A stretch of 64,000 bases of DNA from Geomonas oryzisoli (GTDB lineage: Bacteria; Desulfobacterota; Desulfuromonadia; Geobacterales; Geobacteraceae), in assembly GCF_018986915.1 (NCBI RefSeq), contig NZ_CP076723.1, forward strand, positions 248,001 to 312,000, given 5' to 3'. The position numbers were made by a program, and so were the translations under genes. Of the stretch, positions 51,283 through 58,359 are shown in pieces (position 1 is the stretch's first letter; every line of letters starts with the position of its first letter). The notes beneath the pieces were generated by a model that saw only the letters and a program-made list of their open reading frames with translations, was not told where the DNA came from and searched no databases.

Positions 51283-52053
51283 TTATGACTGCTCGATGTG
51301 TTTAGCCAGCAGTCCGGCCTTGAGCTTCTCCTTGAGGCGGTAGCTTTCGCCCTTGATGCTGACAGAGATCGCGTGGTGCAGCACCCGGTCCAGAATGGCG
51401 CTGGCGATGACCTGGTCGCCGAAGACCTCGCCCCAGTTTGAAAAGGGCTGGTTAGAGGTCATGATCATCGCCCCTTTCTCGTACCGGCGCGAGATGAGCT
51501 GGAAGAAAAGATTTGCGCCCAACCGGTCAATGGGGATGTAGCCTATCTCGTCGACGATCAAAAGTTTAGGCTGGCAGTAAAACTTGAGCTTGTCATCCAG
51601 CCGGTTCTCCGCGTGCGCCCGTGCAAGTGCGGTAATCAGCCCCTGGGCGGTGATGAAGAGGGTCCGGTAGCCACGGCGGATCGCCTCGACTCCAAGGCCG
51701 ACCGAGAGGTGGGTCTTGCCGACGCCAGGAGGGCCAAGGAAGATTACATTTTCGCCGTTTTCGACCCAGCGGCAGGCTGAGAGCTCCTTGATCCGCTTAG
51801 GATCGAGCGACGGCTGATAAGTGTAGTCGAATGAGTCGAGCGTCTTGATGAAGGGGAGCCGTGCCATGCGGGTCCCCATCTCGGTGCGCTTGTCCTTCTT
51901 CGCGGCCACCTCTTCTTCGACCAGGCGCTGGAGAAATTCGTGATAGCCCCACTCGCCCTTGGCGGCATCCTGGAGCCAGCTATCCAGGTGGTCGGCGAGG
52001 CGGGAGAGTTTCAAGTGGCGAAGCGATGCAGCGAGGTCGGTGATCTGTTCCAT
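51283..52053 (-). CDS. istB: IS21 transposition helper ATPase
   Basis: A 256-aa AAA+ protein. VIFLGPPGVGKTHLSVGLG is Walker A; KLLIVDEIGYIPIDRLGANL is Walker B. IstB assembles target DNA for the IstA transposase. It starts 11 nt after the istA stop. Intact. Confidence 0.95.
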   Translation of the reverse strand: MEQITDLAASLRHLKLSRLADHLDSWLQDAAKGEWGYHEFLQRLVEEEVAAKKDKRTEMGTRMARLPFIKTLDSFDYTYQPSLDPKRIKELSACRWVENGENVIFLGPPGVGKTHLSVGLGVEAIRRGYRTLFITAQGLITALARAHAENRLDDKLKFYCQPKLLIVDEIGYIPIDRLGANLFFQLISRRYEKGAMIMTSNQPFSNWGEVFGDQVIASAILDRVLHHAISVSIKGESYRLKEKLKAGLLAKHIEQS

Positions 52054-52064
52054 TGGTCACCCCC

Positions 52065-53360
52065 TCACATGTTCGCTACGTGGTCGTAGATGTCGAGGTC
52101 GCGGATCATGACCTCCTCATCCTTCCACCACGGATCGAAGCGCGGCGGCTCTTCTTTTTTCTTTTCCAGCCGGTCGGTGAAGAGTCCCTGGAAGTGAGCC
52201 GGATTGATGCGCTGTTTGCCGGTCCCGACGAGCTTTTGATGCGTGGCGATGACCTCCTCGCCCTGCAGGATTCGGATCTCGTCACCCCACAGCTCAATCT
52301 GAACCGTTTGCCCAGCGAACCGCCACGGCACTGAATAACGGTTGGCGCCGAAGGTTATCATGCAGTCTCTGGCCACCTTGCGCGTGAGGGCCGTCTCCAG
52401 TCGGTAAGGCGGCACAGAATTGACGTCGATGAGCTTCTCCTCCGAGAATCTCTCGGCGGGACGGCATCCGGTGGTCCCATGGATGCGGACATCGGCGACT
52501 TCGACAATCCACTTTTCCAGTTCCCGGTTCAGGTGGTCGAGGTCGATGAAACGGCGCCCGGGCAGGAAGTTTCCCTTGATGTACTTCACGCCCGACTCGA
52601 TTTTCCCCTTGGTCTGGGGGCGGTGAGGCCGACAAAGCCGTGGATCGAAACCGAAGTGGCCGGCAAAGTCGGCGAACTTTGTGTTGAGGGTGAGTACGCT
52701 GGCCGTATGGTCGGTAACGATGGTCTTTGGATTGTCATAGAGCAGTTCTGAAGGGCGGCCACCAAACCATGCGAAAGCCTCCTGGTGGGCTGCCAGAAGA
52801 GTCGGCAGGCGCTCATCAAGGTATGCGCGAGCGAAGAGCCTGCGAGAGTAGCCGAGGACCATGGCAAAGAAGTGGATGCGGACTCTTTGGTCGCCGAGCC
52901 AGACTTGGGCGCTGCCCCAATCCACCTGCCCCTGCTTTCCGGGACCGGTCTCAAACCGCATTACGGCATCCACTCGCTGCTGGAACTCCTCGCGCAGGGG
53001 GCGCACCAACAGCTTTACCATCTCGTATCCGCCGGTGTAGCCCTTCTCCTTGAGTTCGCGGAACAAGATGGCAGCGTTGAAATTAACCTCCTCAGCACGG
53101 GAGGTGGCCCATTCATCGAATTGCGAAAGCACAGTGTCTGTTGGCTTCGGTCGCTGGTACGGCTCCCACTGCGGCTTCTTGAGGGCACGACGTACCGTTT
53201 TGACGGTCACCTCCAACTGCCTGGCGATCTCCTTCTTAGCGGTTCCAAGCCGGGCAAGCTCTCGGATCGCTCCGTACTTGTTTCTGTCGACCATGGTCCC
53301 CTCCAGCATGACAGTCTGCTGAAGGGCATCTTGCACCTGAAGCTCTCCTGGGTGAATCAT
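52065..53360 (-). CDS. istA: IS21 transposase
   Basis: A 431-aa DDE transposase. The N-terminal HTH is ARLGTAKKEIARQLEVTVKT. The catalytic residues sit in GQVDWGSAQVW (Asp), ELLYDNPKTIV (Asp) and KGKIESGVKYIKGNF (Glu). Full length, no frameshift, so the insertion may still be active. Confidence 0.95.
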   Translation of the reverse strand: MIHPGELQVQDALQQTVMLEGTMVDRNKYGAIRELARLGTAKKEIARQLEVTVKTVRRALKKPQWEPYQRPKPTDTVLSQFDEWATSRAEEVNFNAAILFRELKEKGYTGGYEMVKLLVRPLREEFQQRVDAVMRFETGPGKQGQVDWGSAQVWLGDQRVRIHFFAMVLGYSRRLFARAYLDERLPTLLAAHQEAFAWFGGRPSELLYDNPKTIVTDHTASVLTLNTKFADFAGHFGFDPRLCRPHRPQTKGKIESGVKYIKGNFLPGRRFIDLDHLNRELEKWIVEVADVRIHGTTGCRPAERFSEEKLIDVNSVPPYRLETALTRKVARDCMITFGANRYSVPWRFAGQTVQIELWGDEIRILQGEEVIATHQKLVGTGKQRINPAHFQGLFTDRLEKKKEEPPRFDPWWKDEEVMIRDLDIYDHVANM

Positions 53361-53451: not shown

Positions 53452-55023
53452 TCAAACAGCGCCGTGCTTCGTACCCTTCCGCGCTCTGGTCCCGTCAGCG
53501 GGATACAGGTACTCCAACTCATACAGAAGATCTGCCTTTAGTGTGGCGAAATCTAACTCGTACACCAACTTCTCCAGGTCGTCACGGTACATCGTTAGAT
53601 TGTCAAGGAGTTGGTGCAGGTAGATGGTATCCATGCCGTGTTTGACGTGCCCCATGAGCGTCAATCGAACTGAGTCCGCAATCCTGCCGTGAAGTCTGGT
53701 GTCAAAGGTGGCTCTGCAACTGTGAAAGGTTTTGGACCGTAAAGTGCTTTTTATCCCAGTTGCGTACAGGATTTCATTGAACCTTTTTCTGTAGTTTTCG
53801 ATGGTAACAGGAAAGATTTTATCTTTTTGTTTTCCTGCAAACTCAAGTAGTCCGAGTTCGATTAGGTTGCTATGTACTGGCACCATCCGTATGCTGGCTA
53901 CATTGTTTTTTGTCAGCTTTGTAAAATCAAAATACGTAACACCGTTGTAGGTCTTTATATCGTTTTTAGTAAATGAGGCTTGTTCAGTTGATCTGAACCC
54001 AGTATATATGAACATCAGTATTAGGTACGTCAGTTCTAGCTGGCTTTGCCGGTCACTTACCTTATGAGGCTTGTTGTTAATAACATATGAAAAGAAAGTG
54101 TTAAGCTCGCTGAATGAGTACGGCAAGTTTGCCTTTTTGACTTTCTCCTCGCCATGCTTCTTAGGAGAGACAATGGTGGGCACCCGGTCAATGTGTCCAA
54201 ACTCTTTAAGGTGATTGAAGAAAAACCGCAAGTAGCGCAGCCTTGTATCTGCAGACGCCTTGTTGAGGCCCTTCTTGCCGTTCTTTTCTTCCATCATGAA
54301 GAGCGTCAGTTTCTTGTAGTCCAGATCGAGAAGAGACTCGACCGGCACGTCCTTACCGTCCAGCCACCGAGTTAGCTGCTTGAGAGCCTGCTTATCGCTG
54401 TTGAGGGTGGAAGCATCCATTGGCCGGTAGTGTACAGTATCGGCTGGCGCTTCACGGTGCGCTTTGTACAGCTTTATCGCTTCACTGAGTAGCAACTGCT
54501 TCTGAGGCGGTGGCGCAGATGCAACAGGCTTGAGGTCAGGTGCAGGTGCAGGTTCCTGCCTCTGAGTCGGGGCCAGTACAGCAGATGGTATTTGAAGAGT
54601 CTGCACCCCCACGAACTCCCACTCATCGCTGGCCGTCAGTGTCCATCCCTCGTCAAGGCGTACCTGGATCGCAACGAGATCCGGGTGGGGTGCGAGTCCG
54701 GCCTCCTGCTCTACGACCCAACCGGGGCCAAAACTCTGAGTAGTAGTTACGCTGACGTGGGTTTGAGTGCCAGGATGCAAACGCCGGAAGATGGTTACAG
54801 CCTCTGCGGTGATGGTGGGCGGGGTGTACATTCGTTTACCTCTGATTTCGTGGAACTGCTTTTGGAGATCAGCGAGCGCAGGGTACAGCAGTTTTCGTGC
54901 GTCGGCGAGGCATCTGGTTCGCAGACTACGCTTAATTTCGCGGGTTCTGTAGTGGTCTTTTAGGTCAGGAGGGACTACCAGACGGAGGTAGTAGGTACGG
55001 TTGATTTTGGTCAGATAGGTCAC
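53452..55023 (-). CDS. Large tyrosine recombinase/phage integrase
   Basis: About 523 aa. The N-terminal YLTKINRTYYLRLVVPPDLK resembles the DUF6538 arm domain. A variable linker follows, then a SAM-like core-binding domain and the catalytic domain: FIYTGFRSTEQASF (Arg), TFHSCRATFDTRL (HxxR), LMGHVKHGMDTIYLHQ (second His/Tyr). GTG 55023 has AGGA upstream and starts at the usual position for the family; ATG 55032 is also in frame. It sits at the right edge, 190 bp inside the candidate att site, as expected for the element's own integrase. The IS21 right end lies 18 bp beyond its stop and left the gene intact. Confidence 0.87.
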   Translation of the reverse strand: MTYLTKINRTYYLRLVVPPDLKDHYRTREIKRSLRTRCLADARKLLYPALADLQKQFHEIRGKRMYTPPTITAEAVTIFRRLHPGTQTHVSVTTTQSFGPGWVVEQEAGLAPHPDLVAIQVRLDEGWTLTASDEWEFVGVQTLQIPSAVLAPTQRQEPAPAPDLKPVASAPPPQKQLLLSEAIKLYKAHREAPADTVHYRPMDASTLNSDKQALKQLTRWLDGKDVPVESLLDLDYKKLTLFMMEEKNGKKGLNKASADTRLRYLRFFFNHLKEFGHIDRVPTIVSPKKHGEEKVKKANLPYSFSELNTFFSYVINNKPHKVSDRQSQLELTYLILMFIYTGFRSTEQASFTKNDIKTYNGVTYFDFTKLTKNNVASIRMVPVHSNLIELGLLEFAGKQKDKIFPVTIENYRKRFNEILYATGIKSTLRSKTFHSCRATFDTRLHGRIADSVRLTLMGHVKHGMDTIYLHQLLDNLTMYRDDLEKLVYELDFATLKADLLYELEYLYPADGTRARKGTKHGAV

Positions 55024-55213
55024 GATCCGCATTCCTCACTTTGTACAAGGTTTTGTACCAAGCCAGGAATGGGCGCTGAATCACCACTTTGACCATCAAT
55101 GATTTCGCTAGGTTAGGAAGGGTGAGATTCTGTTCTAACGAGGAATTCGGTGCTGCTATGCGTATGTAGTCGGAGCCTGGCGGGTTTGCGGAACTCCCGA
55201 CGCGGTCTGACCG
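55024..55213. other. Integrase upstream region with TTGTAC motifs
   Basis: No gene. TTTGTACAAGGTTTTGTACC at about 55039-55058 repeats the TTTGTAC core seen in both candidate att sites and could be arm-type integrase sites or the promoter region. Confidence 0.4.
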
Positions 55214-55346: not shown

Positions 55347-55625
55347 CTAGTGGCCGGGCTTGTTCAAATCATCCAGGATATCGTTGGCTTCTTTCAGTTT
55401 TTCTTGGAGTTTTTTCAGCTCGTCGGCCGTGTAGACCCTGTGCCCCTTGTTGATCTCGCCCTGTAGCTTGGCGATCTTCTGCTGGATGCTGTCTACCTCG
55501 TTTCTGCAGTTTTTCGAGATGAGCAGGCATTCGTCTTTGGAACCCATGCCCATGTCAGCGGCAAACGTCGGTACGCTGCCCAGTGCCAGGAACCCTGCCA
55601 TGACAATCAAAGCGATCCTCTTCAT
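55347..55625 (-). CDS. Small periplasmic coiled-coil protein
   Basis: A 92-aa protein with a signal peptide (KRIALIVMAGFLALGSVPTFA). The mature part is helical: KDECLLISKNCRNEVDSIQQ with two Cys, then LQGEINKGHRVYTADELKKL with heptad-like spacing. Start ATG 55625 has AAGGAGG upstream. It is a short-lived or stress-type envelope protein by appearance only; function unknown. Confidence 0.75.
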   Translation of the reverse strand: MKRIALIVMAGFLALGSVPTFAADMGMGSKDECLLISKNCRNEVDSIQQKIAKLQGEINKGHRVYTADELKKLQEKLKEANDILDDLNKPGH

Positions 55626-55677
55626 CGTGTGCCTCCTTGTCTGTAGTGTCCTTGTCGCAATGTGACATCCGGAATAA

Positions 55678-55705
55678 GTAGTAGCACCCCCGCTACCTGT
55701 GTCAA
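55678..55705 (-). promoter_or_regulatory. Candidate sigma-70 promoter of the small periplasmic protein gene
   Basis: On the minus strand TTGACA (55705-55700), 16-bp spacer, TACTAC (55683-55678). Confidence 0.45.
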
Positions 55706-55776
55706 GTGATGCCGAAGGTCCGGGCACCCTGTGACATAGGATGGAACTGCTGATCCAATTATCTCACAATATGACT

Positions 55777-58359
55777 CTACAGGATAGCCATGAAGATGAC
55801 CGCGGCCGCCAGGAGGAGCAGGCGGTGCCCGATCAGCGCCCGGGGGGGGAGGCCGTCCTGGCGCTGCAGTTTGCCCAGGATGACCCAGGAGAAGAGGGCG
55901 GCGAGCAGCAGCAGAGGGTAGATGAGCAGGCGCAGCGTTCCCAGTTCCGGGGTCAGCGCCGCCGCGTCCAGGAGGTTGCCGAGGCGCAGCGCGTCCACCA
56001 GGAGCGGCACGATTCCGGCGCCCCCCTCCACCAGCGCCCGGAAGAAGATCATGAACAGGCCGGCCACCGCCAGCGGCAGGTAGGCCAGACCGCTGGTGGT
56101 GAAGACCGAGCGCCAGCCGGTGCCGCGCACCGTGGCCGAGGCGAGGCCGGCGAGGACGGTGAAGCCCGCCACGATGGCCAGGGCCAGCAGGTAATCGTTG
56201 ACGCTCCAGAGGGTGCGCGTGAAGATCTCGGGAGGGCGGCCCGCCAGCAGCGGCGTACCTTTGGCGGCGATTACCACGCCGATCAAAGTGGTGCTGAAGA
56301 GCGCTTCGCGGAAGCCGCGCCGGGCCCGGTTGAAACCGCCCCAGGTGGGGTTTCTCAGGTCGAGTTGCATGGAGCGGTGCGGACAGCTCCGGACGCAGTT
56401 AAGGCAGAGCACGCAATGATCGGAGCTGTCGACGCCGGAAGGGTGCAGCCCCATCGGGCACCCCTTCTCCTTGATGCAGTCGTCGACGCGGCAACGGCTC
56501 AGGCAGACGTTGTGGTTACTGTGCATCTCCAGCGGCGAGATGCGCGACACCAGGCTTACGATCCGCCCCAGGGGACACAGGAACTTGCACCACCCCCGGC
56601 GGCCGATCACCAGGTCGGCGCTGACGGTGGCGCAGAGGATCCCGGAAAGGAGCACCCCGGTAGCACCGGCGTAGCTGAACATGCCGGTCGCCTGCTCCAG
56701 AAGAAGAATCGCCACCAGTGCCACGAAAGAGAGCGACGGTCCCCAGCGGCGCAGCCAGGGGGCGGGGTCGCGCACCACGCGGCTGGAAACCCCCAGGTAC
56801 TCCCCGATCGCCTCCATGGGACAGAAGCTGCACCAGCCGCGGGCGAAGAGGAAGGCGGTGACCAGAAGCGCCGGCCACCCGATGGTCCACGCGATGAGGT
56901 TGGCGGCGTTGTGCTGGCGCGGGCCGAACAAGGTGTAGAGCGTGACGCCGAGAAAGAGCGGCACGGTGAGCCAGCGCAACAGGCGCGGGAAGCGCGGGTT
57001 CCTGGCCAGGTTCTCCACGGCGGGGAGGGTGAGCAGGTTGAAACGCCCGTCACCGAAGGGGTGCCCCTGCAGCGAGATGTGCTCGGGCTGGATCTCGTCG
57101 TCGTTGCAGACCACCACCGCGCGGGAGACGACCTGGTACAGTTCGCTCGCGTTCAGGGGCCAGTCGTGGTCCACCAGCCGGTTCAGGGCGTCCTGGGAGA
57201 GGCGGCGCACCTCTTTGTGGTGCTTGGCGTTCAGCGACTTCAAAAGGCTCCGGGCTATGACCGGGATGTCCTTTTTGCGCTCCCTGAGCGGCACGAGCTC
57301 CAGGGTCTCACCGGAGAGCTTCTTGAACAGCACCGCGTGGAACTTGCCGCTGTCCACCAGCGGCTGCAGGGGCTTACCGCTGGTGGCGATGATGCGCACC
57401 TGCGCGCTTCTGAGCTTGGTCTCGCCGCGACGGGTGAAATGGCCGCTCTCCATGAAATCGACCAGTTCCTCCTGCACGGCGGCGGAGAGGCAGTCGATGT
57501 TCCTCAAGATGATGTCGCCGCCTGCGGCGAGCTCGATCATGCCGCGCCTGACCCGACGGGCGTACATGGCCCCCTCGGGGGCGTGGCCGAACAGGGCCGC
57601 CTCCTGGGCGAGGCCCAACAGGAGCGAGTTCTGCTGGGCGGAGTCGCTGGCGGAGCATTCCTCGCCCATGACCGGGGGAGGAGAGGCGCAGTCGAGAAAG
57701 AGGACCGGACGGTCCCCGGTGCTGTGGAAATGGATCAGGCGGGCGGCGAGGTCCTTCCAGGTTCCAGGTTCGCCGAGGATGAGGACGTGGCTCCTGGTGT
57801 CGGCCAGGTGCTGCAGTCGCTGGTTCAAGAGGCGCACCCAGGGGGAGGTGCCGGGGAACTCACCGAATTCGGGAAGGAGCTGCCAGCCGATGATGTTGGT
57901 GATCACCTCGCGGTGCTCGCTCTCCTCGCGCTGGTGGCGGTGCGCCCAGCTCCCCAGCTGCGCCGCAAGGATGCGGCTCAGGTTGGCATAGAGCAGGGGC
58001 ATGGCCTCCAGCAGTTCCTCGAAGTGTTCCCGGGTGAGACGGGCGGCCTGAACCTCGGTGATCGCGCGCACGTCGGCGGAGCGCATCTCGTCGGTGAGGA
58101 TGGCGCGCTCGCCGATCACGTTGCCGATGCCGAGCTCGGTGAGGTTGAGGATCTGCCCGGAGCGGTCCAAAAGCTCCACCCGGATCCTCCCGGAGAGGAT
58201 CACGTAGAGCTCCTGTGCCGGCTCGTGCCTGGCCAGGATGACGTCGCCCGCGGCGAAGTCGCGCAGCTCCAGGCGCTGCGCGATGCGCTGCAGGTCGTTT
58301 TCGTTGAGGCCGCTGAAAAGGCGGATGCCCGAAATGGTCTCGGAACTGATTGAAGCCAT
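55777..58359 (-). CDS. cNMP-binding / degenerate sigma-54-type AAA+ / membrane polyferredoxin fusion protein
   Basis: An 860-aa multidomain protein. Residues about 10-125 form a cyclic-nucleotide-binding (Crp-type) domain (LFSGLNENDLQRIAQRL, LSGRIRVELLDRSG). About 160-395 resemble an NtrC-type AAA+ domain, but Walker A is GEPGTWKD, the GAFTGA loop is GAMYAR and Walker B reads IILRNID, so ATP hydrolysis and sigma-54 contact are probably lost. About 430-700 are NapH/NosR-like: RGWCSFCPMEAIGEYLG, RGWCKFLCPLGRI and the ferredoxin cysteines CVLCLNCVRSCPH between membrane helices. More helices end the protein. It probably senses a signal and controls or carries electron flow at the membrane; the exact role is unknown. 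Confidence 0.82.
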   Translation of the reverse strand: MASISSETISGIRLFSGLNENDLQRIAQRLELRDFAAGDVILARHEPAQELYVILSGRIRVELLDRSGQILNLTELGIGNVIGERAILTDEMRSADVRAITEVQAARLTREHFEELLEAMPLLYANLSRILAAQLGSWAHRHQREESEHREVITNIIGWQLLPEFGEFPGTSPWVRLLNQRLQHLADTRSHVLILGEPGTWKDLAARLIHFHSTGDRPVLFLDCASPPPVMGEECSASDSAQQNSLLLGLAQEAALFGHAPEGAMYARRVRRGMIELAAGGDIILRNIDCLSAAVQEELVDFMESGHFTRRGETKLRSAQVRIIATSGKPLQPLVDSGKFHAVLFKKLSGETLELVPLRERKKDIPVIARSLLKSLNAKHHKEVRRLSQDALNRLVDHDWPLNASELYQVVSRAVVVCNDDEIQPEHISLQGHPFGDGRFNLLTLPAVENLARNPRFPRLLRWLTVPLFLGVTLYTLFGPRQHNAANLIAWTIGWPALLVTAFLFARGWCSFCPMEAIGEYLGVSSRVVRDPAPWLRRWGPSLSFVALVAILLLEQATGMFSYAGATGVLLSGILCATVSADLVIGRRGWCKFLCPLGRIVSLVSRISPLEMHSNHNVCLSRCRVDDCIKEKGCPMGLHPSGVDSSDHCVLCLNCVRSCPHRSMQLDLRNPTWGGFNRARRGFREALFSTTLIGVVIAAKGTPLLAGRPPEIFTRTLWSVNDYLLALAIVAGFTVLAGLASATVRGTGWRSVFTTSGLAYLPLAVAGLFMIFFRALVEGGAGIVPLLVDALRLGNLLDAAALTPELGTLRLLIYPLLLLAALFSWVILGKLQRQDGLPPRALIGHRLLLLAAAVIFMAIL

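Follow-up and report, generated by a model that had tools for sequence, protein, structure and literature searches.

A 64,000-nucleotide stretch of the Geomonas oryzisoli genome (contig NZ_CP076723.1, positions 248,001 to 312,000; the whole stretch is referred to here as the window) contains a leftward-transcribed gene whose 860-residue product joins a cyclic nucleotide monophosphate-binding-type (cNMP) sensor domain, a degenerate AAA+ domain of the sigma-54 activator type, and a NapH-like membrane ferredoxin module. This is a real, conserved architecture, in which the AAA+ domain is dead throughout the family and is under purifying selection. We think it probable from sequence comparisons that the protein transfers electrons at the membrane, is related to NapH, and has a regulatory head that was repurposed and does not hydrolyse ATP. 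The genome consists of one contig of 4.85 Mb, and the Geobacteraceae, to which it belongs, are placed in the phylum Desulfobacterota in GTDB (hereafter the phylum).

A dead AAA+ domain in a conserved protein family

The gene and its parts are arranged as follows (window coordinates):

55777..58359, minus strand: whole gene, ATG start, 860 codons; cNMP-type domain, degenerate AAA+ domain and NapH-like membrane ferredoxin module
57940..58359, minus strand: cyclic-nucleotide-binding-type sensor domain (residues 1–140, Pfam), with the cassette GERAILTDEMRSADVRA containing Gly83, Glu84, Arg93 and Ser94
57865..57939, minus strand: linker (residues 141–165)
57070..57864, minus strand: AAA+ domain of the bacterial enhancer-binding protein (bEBP) type with its lid (residues 166–430), catalytic residues replaced
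57751..57774, minus strand: Walker A, GEPGTWKD
57553..57594, minus strand: L1 loop position expected to hold GAFTGA, reading LFGHAPEGAMYARR
57493..57522, minus strand: Walker B position, GGDIILRNID, with Arg286-Asn287 in place of Asp-Glu
57313..57348, minus strand: arginine-finger segment GKFHAVLFKKLS, both arginines replaced (FREDLYYRL-like in most controls)
55780..57054, minus strand: membrane ferredoxin module (residues 436–860), about nine predicted helices with the N-terminus predicted inside
56812..56841, minus strand: first CxxCP motif, RGWCSFCPME (Cys510, Cys513)
56695..56697, minus strand: Glu555 in the third predicted helix, invariant in 62/62 family members
56566..56601, minus strand: second motif, RRGWCKFLCPLG, of the form CxxxCP (Cys591, Cys595)
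56377..56511, minus strand: ferredoxin segment with two four-cysteine groups (Cys619, 623, 628, 634 and Cys649, 652, 655, 659)
55780..56319, minus strand: C-terminal five-helix extension past the NapH-matching part, with His845 in 55/62 family members

Pfam recognizes cNMP_binding at residues 33–118 (70.3 bits against a cut-off of 27.5), Sigma54_activat (PF00158) at residues 172–350 (83.8 against 20.2), AAA_lid_14 at residues 359–429 (63.2 against 27), and Fer4_5 in two stretches (25.9 against 22); Fer4 at residues 646–661 scores only 15.3 bits, under its cut-off of 21.1. The NCBIfam models for NifA, NorR and PspF match the AAA+ part with 125–136 bits where 444–529 are required. Together with hydropathy, the Pfam matches confirm the union of cNMP-binding, AAA+ and membrane ferredoxin domains in one protein that was described in an earlier reading of the sequence (the initial annotation). 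The absence of a DNA-binding domain, also reported there, is borne out as well: a Pfam scan of the 860 residues finds no helix-turn-helix or winged helix, and the spacer between the end of the lid (residue 430) and the start of the first helix (residue 457) is only 27–30 residues long in the 62 aligned proteins described below, which leaves no room for such a domain between lid and membrane.

The initial annotation had noted the loss of the GAFTGA loop, of the Walker B Asp-Glu and of part of Walker A, to which can be added changes at both arginine-finger positions (His341 and Lys347) and at sensor II (Ser405). These positions were surveyed in 62 distinct proteins whose AAA+ domain could be read, comprising the ortholog group of 31 (which counts the window protein), 29 more distant proteins from the phylum, and two encoded on cyanobacterial plasmids; 59 of the proteins other than the window's come from its phylum. 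Eleven control activators (seven matches from the same genome and four from other loci) were compared with them, the line between family and controls being drawn at a blastp score of 185 bits against the window protein, independently of motif state. Genes fetched twice were merged if identical over the last 700 residues, and L057 and L082, which are fragments without a readable AAA+ core, were excluded.

A GAFTGA-like loop is present in 0/62 family members and 11/11 controls, and the Walker B Asp-Glu likewise in 0/62 and 11/11, so that both losses hold for the family as a whole. The partial loss of Walker A stands for the window protein, in which Trp201 takes the place of the third glycine and Lys202 is kept, but extends to only 34 of the 62: this position is Trp in 31, Glu in three and Gly in 28, and the lysine is retained in 59. 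The second finger arginine survives in 6/62 and the sensor II arginine in 2/62. Within the ortholog group the replacements recur almost without exception (Trp201, Lys202 and Asn287 in 31/31, Arg286 in 30/31). Homologs with intact GAFTGA and Walker B, which the initial annotation had named as evidence that would count against it, are absent from the 62. These include proteins from a search with a profile of the membrane module only, which is blind to the state of the AAA+ domain and therefore able to find intact ones; it located an AAA+ head in 28 places, of which 27 are counted in the 62 and the remaining one is the L082 fragment. By fold search, the AAA+ part of the full predicted model matches the AAA+ domains of FlrC, NtrC1 and PspF. 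A tree of the AAA+ domains parts the 62 from the 11 controls by a single split, which we do not use as evidence because its support shifts with rerooting (0.454 or 1.0).

Purifying selection is seen in pairwise Nei-Gojobori ratios of nonsynonymous to synonymous substitution (dN/dS) between the window gene and seven orthologs (7 of the 15 loci of the ortholog set), which are 0.048–0.227 for the AAA+ domain, 0.085–0.286 for the cNMP domain, 0.014–0.175 for the helix-ferredoxin part, and 0.088–0.255 for the C-terminal helices. The AAA+ value is lower than that of the C-terminal membrane part in six of the seven pairs, with L048 as the exception (0.227 versus 0.218). The 25-residue linker between sensor and AAA+ domain is identical in 7/7 orthologs compared, and 19 of its 25 positions are invariant in 16 orthologs. 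In the cNMP cassette, Glu84 is found in 52/62 and Arg93 in 37/62 proteins, both being present in the window protein. No match to PF01295, PF00211 or PF01928, the class I, III and IV cyclase families, is found in the genome itself, though cNMP-type domains are present there.

Matches at E ≤ 1e-50 occur in 36 of 141 genomes of the order, a recurrence that speaks against a chance architecture; among the 36 are G085, with a 333-residue fragment, and G098, whose frame (L058) has no cNMP domain. Across the phylum, one search finds relatives in at least 20 of 395 genomes (E ≤ 1e-45) and another, with the membrane-module profile alone, in at least 76 of 395 (E ≤ 1e-25), both counts being lower bounds because only part of the first-look candidates was scored (two per genome in the former search, up to four in the latter). 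The named relatives are mostly from Geomonas (68–97% identity), together with Citrifermentans bremense (81%) and four metagenome-assembled genomes of Geobacteraceae (57–81%).

The full architecture, again with dead AAA+ domains, is also encoded on two cyanobacterial plasmids:

L114, 5872-9509: cyanobacterial plasmid copy, cysK directly downstream
L115, 5869-9560: cyanobacterial plasmid copy, cysK directly downstream

Both match with 77% query coverage and 26% identity, and they are the sole sensor-to-ferredoxin matches among the best 20 of 2114 matching plasmid records; their deposited labels are 'nitrogen assimilation regulatory protein' and 'cyclic nucleotide-binding domain-containing protein'. 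The sigma-54 DNA-binding family is found on neither plasmid record, the search covering the plasmids and not the host chromosomes, and it is matched in four of 14 control genomes, the cyanobacterial control Synechococcus elongatus not being among them. To our knowledge cyanobacteria possess no sigma-54, as is commonly said, and if this holds the plasmid copies cannot serve it; they thus argue against a role in sigma-54 activation, evidence for which the initial annotation had likewise listed as contrary to its reading. The cysK genes start 5 or 17 bases after the plasmid copies, and glutaredoxin, DsrE, rhodanese-like, MerR or ArsP genes lie within 7 kb; a thiol or sulfur link is a lead only. 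PMC5061849 has no passage on such a protein and no occurrence of 'cysteine synthase', and the sulfide link stays a lead. A second Pseudanabaena plasmid contains a 104-residue open reading frame (L118:5097-5411) annotated 'sigma 54-interacting', which overlaps a region that matches part of the cyanobacterial plasmid-copy protein with 60% identity.

The membrane module and its genomic settings

Hydropathy delimits nine helix-like segments in the membrane module, and all twelve cysteines of the two CxxCP-type motifs and the ferredoxin segment are present in 62/62 proteins. The family mean of lysine plus arginine per residue is 0.129–0.186 in predicted inner loops versus 0.043–0.091 in outer loops, and the N-terminus is accordingly predicted to lie on the cytoplasmic side, together with the ferredoxin and the two CxxCP-type loops. 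Two AlphaFold models, each built from an alignment of 16 close orthologs, have mean predicted local distance difference test (pLDDT) scores of 61.1 and 56.0, the module model consisting of nine long helices at low confidence; because the membrane parts are poorly predicted, only the AAA+ fold match is used from them.

The same module occurs without the head. The module-profile search of the phylum identified 32 such places (E < 1e-83) in frames of 450–500 residues, too short to hold a head, and head-less proteins labelled '4Fe-4S binding protein' are encoded on Deinococcus and haloarchaeal plasmids as well as in many genomes of the phylum; the plasmid relatives are 443–452 residues long in two annotated copies that were translated, with 23–28% identity where measured. 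Elsewhere the module stands behind other domains:

L165, 5082-7301, plus strand: module behind cytochrome c (Pfam scan)
L166, 5647-7833, plus strand: module behind YHS domains
L167, 6139-8115, minus strand: module behind YHS domains
L170, 2406-4274, minus strand: module behind a cupredoxin/COX2-like domain

Enlarged heads are also found, with the order FHA-cNMP-AAA+ in L071 and cNMP-GAF-AAA+ in L068. In a tree of 64 module proteins, 19 head-less proteins cluster with one headed protein (support 0.994); head and module are thus separable in evolution, heads having either been lost or been gained on more than one occasion.

The surroundings of these relatives differ. L166–L168 adjoin genes that by eye resemble a molybdopterin enzyme, a NapG-like ferredoxin and a further NapH-like protein, and members of a large head-less group of about 455 residues adjoin trp genes (by eye) in L154, L156, L158, L159, L160 and L174. 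What adjoins a head-less module varies between groups, the genes recognized by eye being trp genes, one like priA and one like degP, and gives no hint of function.

Upstream of the headed genes, sites with at least 10 letters of a 12-letter sigma-54 consensus are present in 5 of 50 regions, and 7 of 50 regions reach p < 0.05 in mononucleotide shuffles versus 2.5 expected. Sites with 11/12 letters begin 36 (L088), 52 (L090) and 93 (L093) bases before the gene; an NtrC-type regulator is divergently placed next door in L088 and L090, where the upstream site makes the gene look like a sigma-54 target and not an activator. The window gene has no such site, the best match upstream of it reaching only 5/12 letters.

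Several other features were observed around the window gene. The gap before it holds a 52-nucleotide inverted repeat (58578-58629/58709-58760) that is 81% complementary with its arms 79 nucleotides apart, contains G/C runs, and lies inside further inverted arms. Just downstream, 55347-55727 (minus strand) encodes a small secreted-looking protein, probably starting at MKRIALIV, that has relatives in four other Geomonas loci and no Pfam match. Mobile-element genes are close by, namely an IS21-type element at 51283-53360 (minus strand; IstB by Pfam, with 52065-53360 transposase-like by eye) and an integrase with a DUF6538 domain at 53452-55032 (minus strand).

Proposed function and alternatives

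In the reading that we favour, the C-terminal module with its roughly nine helices would carry electrons between the quinone pool and a partner that is either soluble or in the membrane, as NapH does, with the CxxCP-type motifs and the two-cluster ferredoxin facing the cytoplasm. The N-terminal half would be a former sigma-54 activator that lost its ATP-hydrolysis residues, sigma-54-binding loop, arginine fingers and DNA-binding domain and gained a membrane anchor, the head now serving as a scaffold, conformational or oligomeric, that does not hydrolyse ATP. A signal at the cNMP-type domain may travel via the conserved linker and the AAA+ fold and next cross the spacer of near-fixed length into the first membrane helix, beside the CxxCP loops, and electron transfer would thereby be opened or closed. 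We infer the electron-relay half of this scheme from the invariant cysteines and the kinship with NapH (42.8 bits, under the cut-off of 213), and the scaffold half from domain order, linker conservation and selection; cluster occupancy, the quinone link, gating, the oligomer and the ligand are likewise inferred. The suggestion in the initial annotation that a transcription regulator was turned into a control head finds partial support, in the selection acting on the dead AAA+ domain and in the occurrence of the module head-less or with other N-terminal domains.

Several observations weigh against this reading. The family is patchy, with members in only 9 of the 29 genera that make up the order, and two of the 62 proteins (L058 and L081) have no cNMP domain in the frame read. 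No neighbour in 52 loci, annotated with a home-made gene caller, names a redox partner or ties the gene to metals or nitrogen oxides, and none is shared beyond close synteny, except for the cysK downstream of both cyanobacterial copies; an intact NtrC-type regulator with GAFTGA adjoins the gene in four of these loci (L088, L090, L100 and L101). The models of the membrane part are poor (pLDDT mostly 30–65 before residue 690), and for that reason a contact between head and membrane is not visible in them. Finally, the headed modules do not form a single clade in the module tree, and one of the two outgroup proteins, the NapH-like protein of the same genome, falls inside the ingroup, which makes it uncertain where the root lies and how heads were gained and lost.

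Information could instead run from the membrane outward, with the iron-sulfur module sensing redox or quinone state and the cNMP-AAA+ head acting as an output that docks on soluble partners. We regard this as doubtful. It would fit the conservation of the head under purifying selection, the extra signalling domains of some heads (FHA in L071, GAF in L068), and the lack of a dedicated redox partner in the neighbourhood, but modules that are head-less or fused to cytochrome, YHS or cupredoxin domains look like carriers of electrons and not like sensors, nothing was found that could be the output partner, and FHA, GAF and cNMP domains usually serve as inputs. It is improbable that the protein acts in trans, its dead AAA+ domain mixing into bEBP rings and keeping them inactive at the membrane. 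The sequence and fold match to bEBP domains would allow for this, the genome has 51 bEBP-like matches (a count that takes in the gene of interest and a few hits to the membrane or cNMP part only) of which the seven checked have intact motifs, and there are the four loci with an adjacent regulator. However, copies are maintained in cyanobacteria, in which a sigma-54 system is not expected, most members have lost the arginine-finger and sensor II residues that function at the ring interface and in sensing nucleotides (the second finger Arg remains in 6/62, the sensor II Arg in 2/62), and in L088 and L090 the gene, with its sigma-54-like site 36 or 52 bases upstream, looks like the regulator's target.

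That the AAA+ domain is the functionless relic of a decaying fusion is very improbable: many catalytic residues are indeed lost, but its dN/dS is 0.05–0.23, the replacement residues are fixed in 31 orthologs, and Pfam still recognizes the domain in those distant headed proteins that were scanned. Decay is rejected by the dN/dS values in the seven ortholog pairs. It would be extremely surprising if the protein were a membrane-bound transcription factor working via sigma-70 after the manner of the GAFTGA-less NtrC of Caulobacter and Rhodobacter, since those proteins keep their DNA-binding domain, whereas Pfam finds none in the window protein and the 27–30 residue spacer leaves no space for one. 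Passages of PMC10274813 do describe GAFTGA-less bEBPs that regulate sigma-70 promoters.

The regulatory-head reading can be sharpened into a version that we hold to be rather unlikely in its specifics, in which the dead AAA+ domain would gate a quinone-linked iron-sulfur conduit in response to a second messenger or to the adenylate state and represent a general class of switch. Lineages with an intact P-loop would read ATP/ADP without hydrolysis, while in the window clade Trp201 would plug the pocket and the cNMP site alone would do the gating; the division is based on the third glycine being kept in 28/62 proteins and the lysine in 59/62. Such a gate would provide direct, transcription-independent control of electron flow made from transcription-factor parts, in the window's phylum and in cyanobacteria. 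More generally, if the head gates electron flow, a cytoplasmic signal would exert fast post-translational control over membrane electron traffic, and a transcription motor would have been reused as the regulatory domain of a membrane protein, with other residues in place of its catalytic ones and fixed there in one clade.

Relationship to known systems

The components of the protein are of known kinds, and no description of the combination of cNMP domain, dead AAA+ domain and membrane ferredoxin was found in the open-licence PMC literature (titles and starts of abstracts). Its AAA+ domain and lid align with those of the sigma-54 activators (bEBPs such as NtrC, NifA, PspF and FleQ) and the fold matches FlrC, NtrC1 and PspF, but GAFTGA and Walker B are missing in 62/62 family members, the arginine fingers and sensor II are mostly replaced, and there is no DNA-binding domain; a few true sigma-54 activators also lack the last of these. 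On the motif evidence family members cannot work as sigma-54 activators despite their Sigma54_activat match, and lists of activators compiled by PF00158 only would take them in. PMC4641369 gives 37 Desulfovibrio activators identified by PF00158, each then checked for GAFTGA, and neither 'cyclic nucleotide' nor '4Fe-4S' occurs in its main text. Crp/Fnr regulators have the sensor domain in common with the window protein (70.3 versus 27.5 bits), but Pfam does not find their winged helix in it. The GAFTGA-less NtrC proteins of Caulobacter and Rhodobacter are DNA-binding response regulators and, unlike the window protein, not membrane iron-sulfur proteins. The sigma-54 loop is lost there too, and these proteins act at sigma-70 promoters, as described in part of PMC10274813.

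The best curated match of the membrane part is NapH/MauN (TIGR02163, NF007013; 42.8 bits, E 4.4e-11, far under the curated cut-off of 213), with which it shares two CxxCP-type motifs at helix ends followed by two four-cysteine groups on the predicted cytoplasmic side. NapH relays electrons between the quinone pool and a partner, and NapH/MauN proteins have four membrane helices and end after the ferredoxin, whereas the window protein continues for about five more helices at the C-terminus and has a head of 434 residues. There is no nap-like cluster around the window gene, the genome's own NapH-like protein being encoded elsewhere, by a molybdopterin oxidoreductase-like gene (by eye). NosR is also a membrane iron-sulfur protein with an extra, sensory-looking N-terminal half; this half is periplasmic, whereas that of the window protein is predicted to be cytoplasmic, and the window protein scores 15 bits against a cut-off of 1000 for NosR (NF046105) and has no flavin mononucleotide-binding domain in the Pfam scan. 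In the initial annotation's term 'NapH/NosR-like', the NapH part therefore holds by its motifs and its sub-threshold score, and the NosR part is weak. The head-less '4Fe-4S binding protein' of Deinococcus and haloarchaea has the same long membrane module as the window protein, but without the cNMP-AAA+ head.

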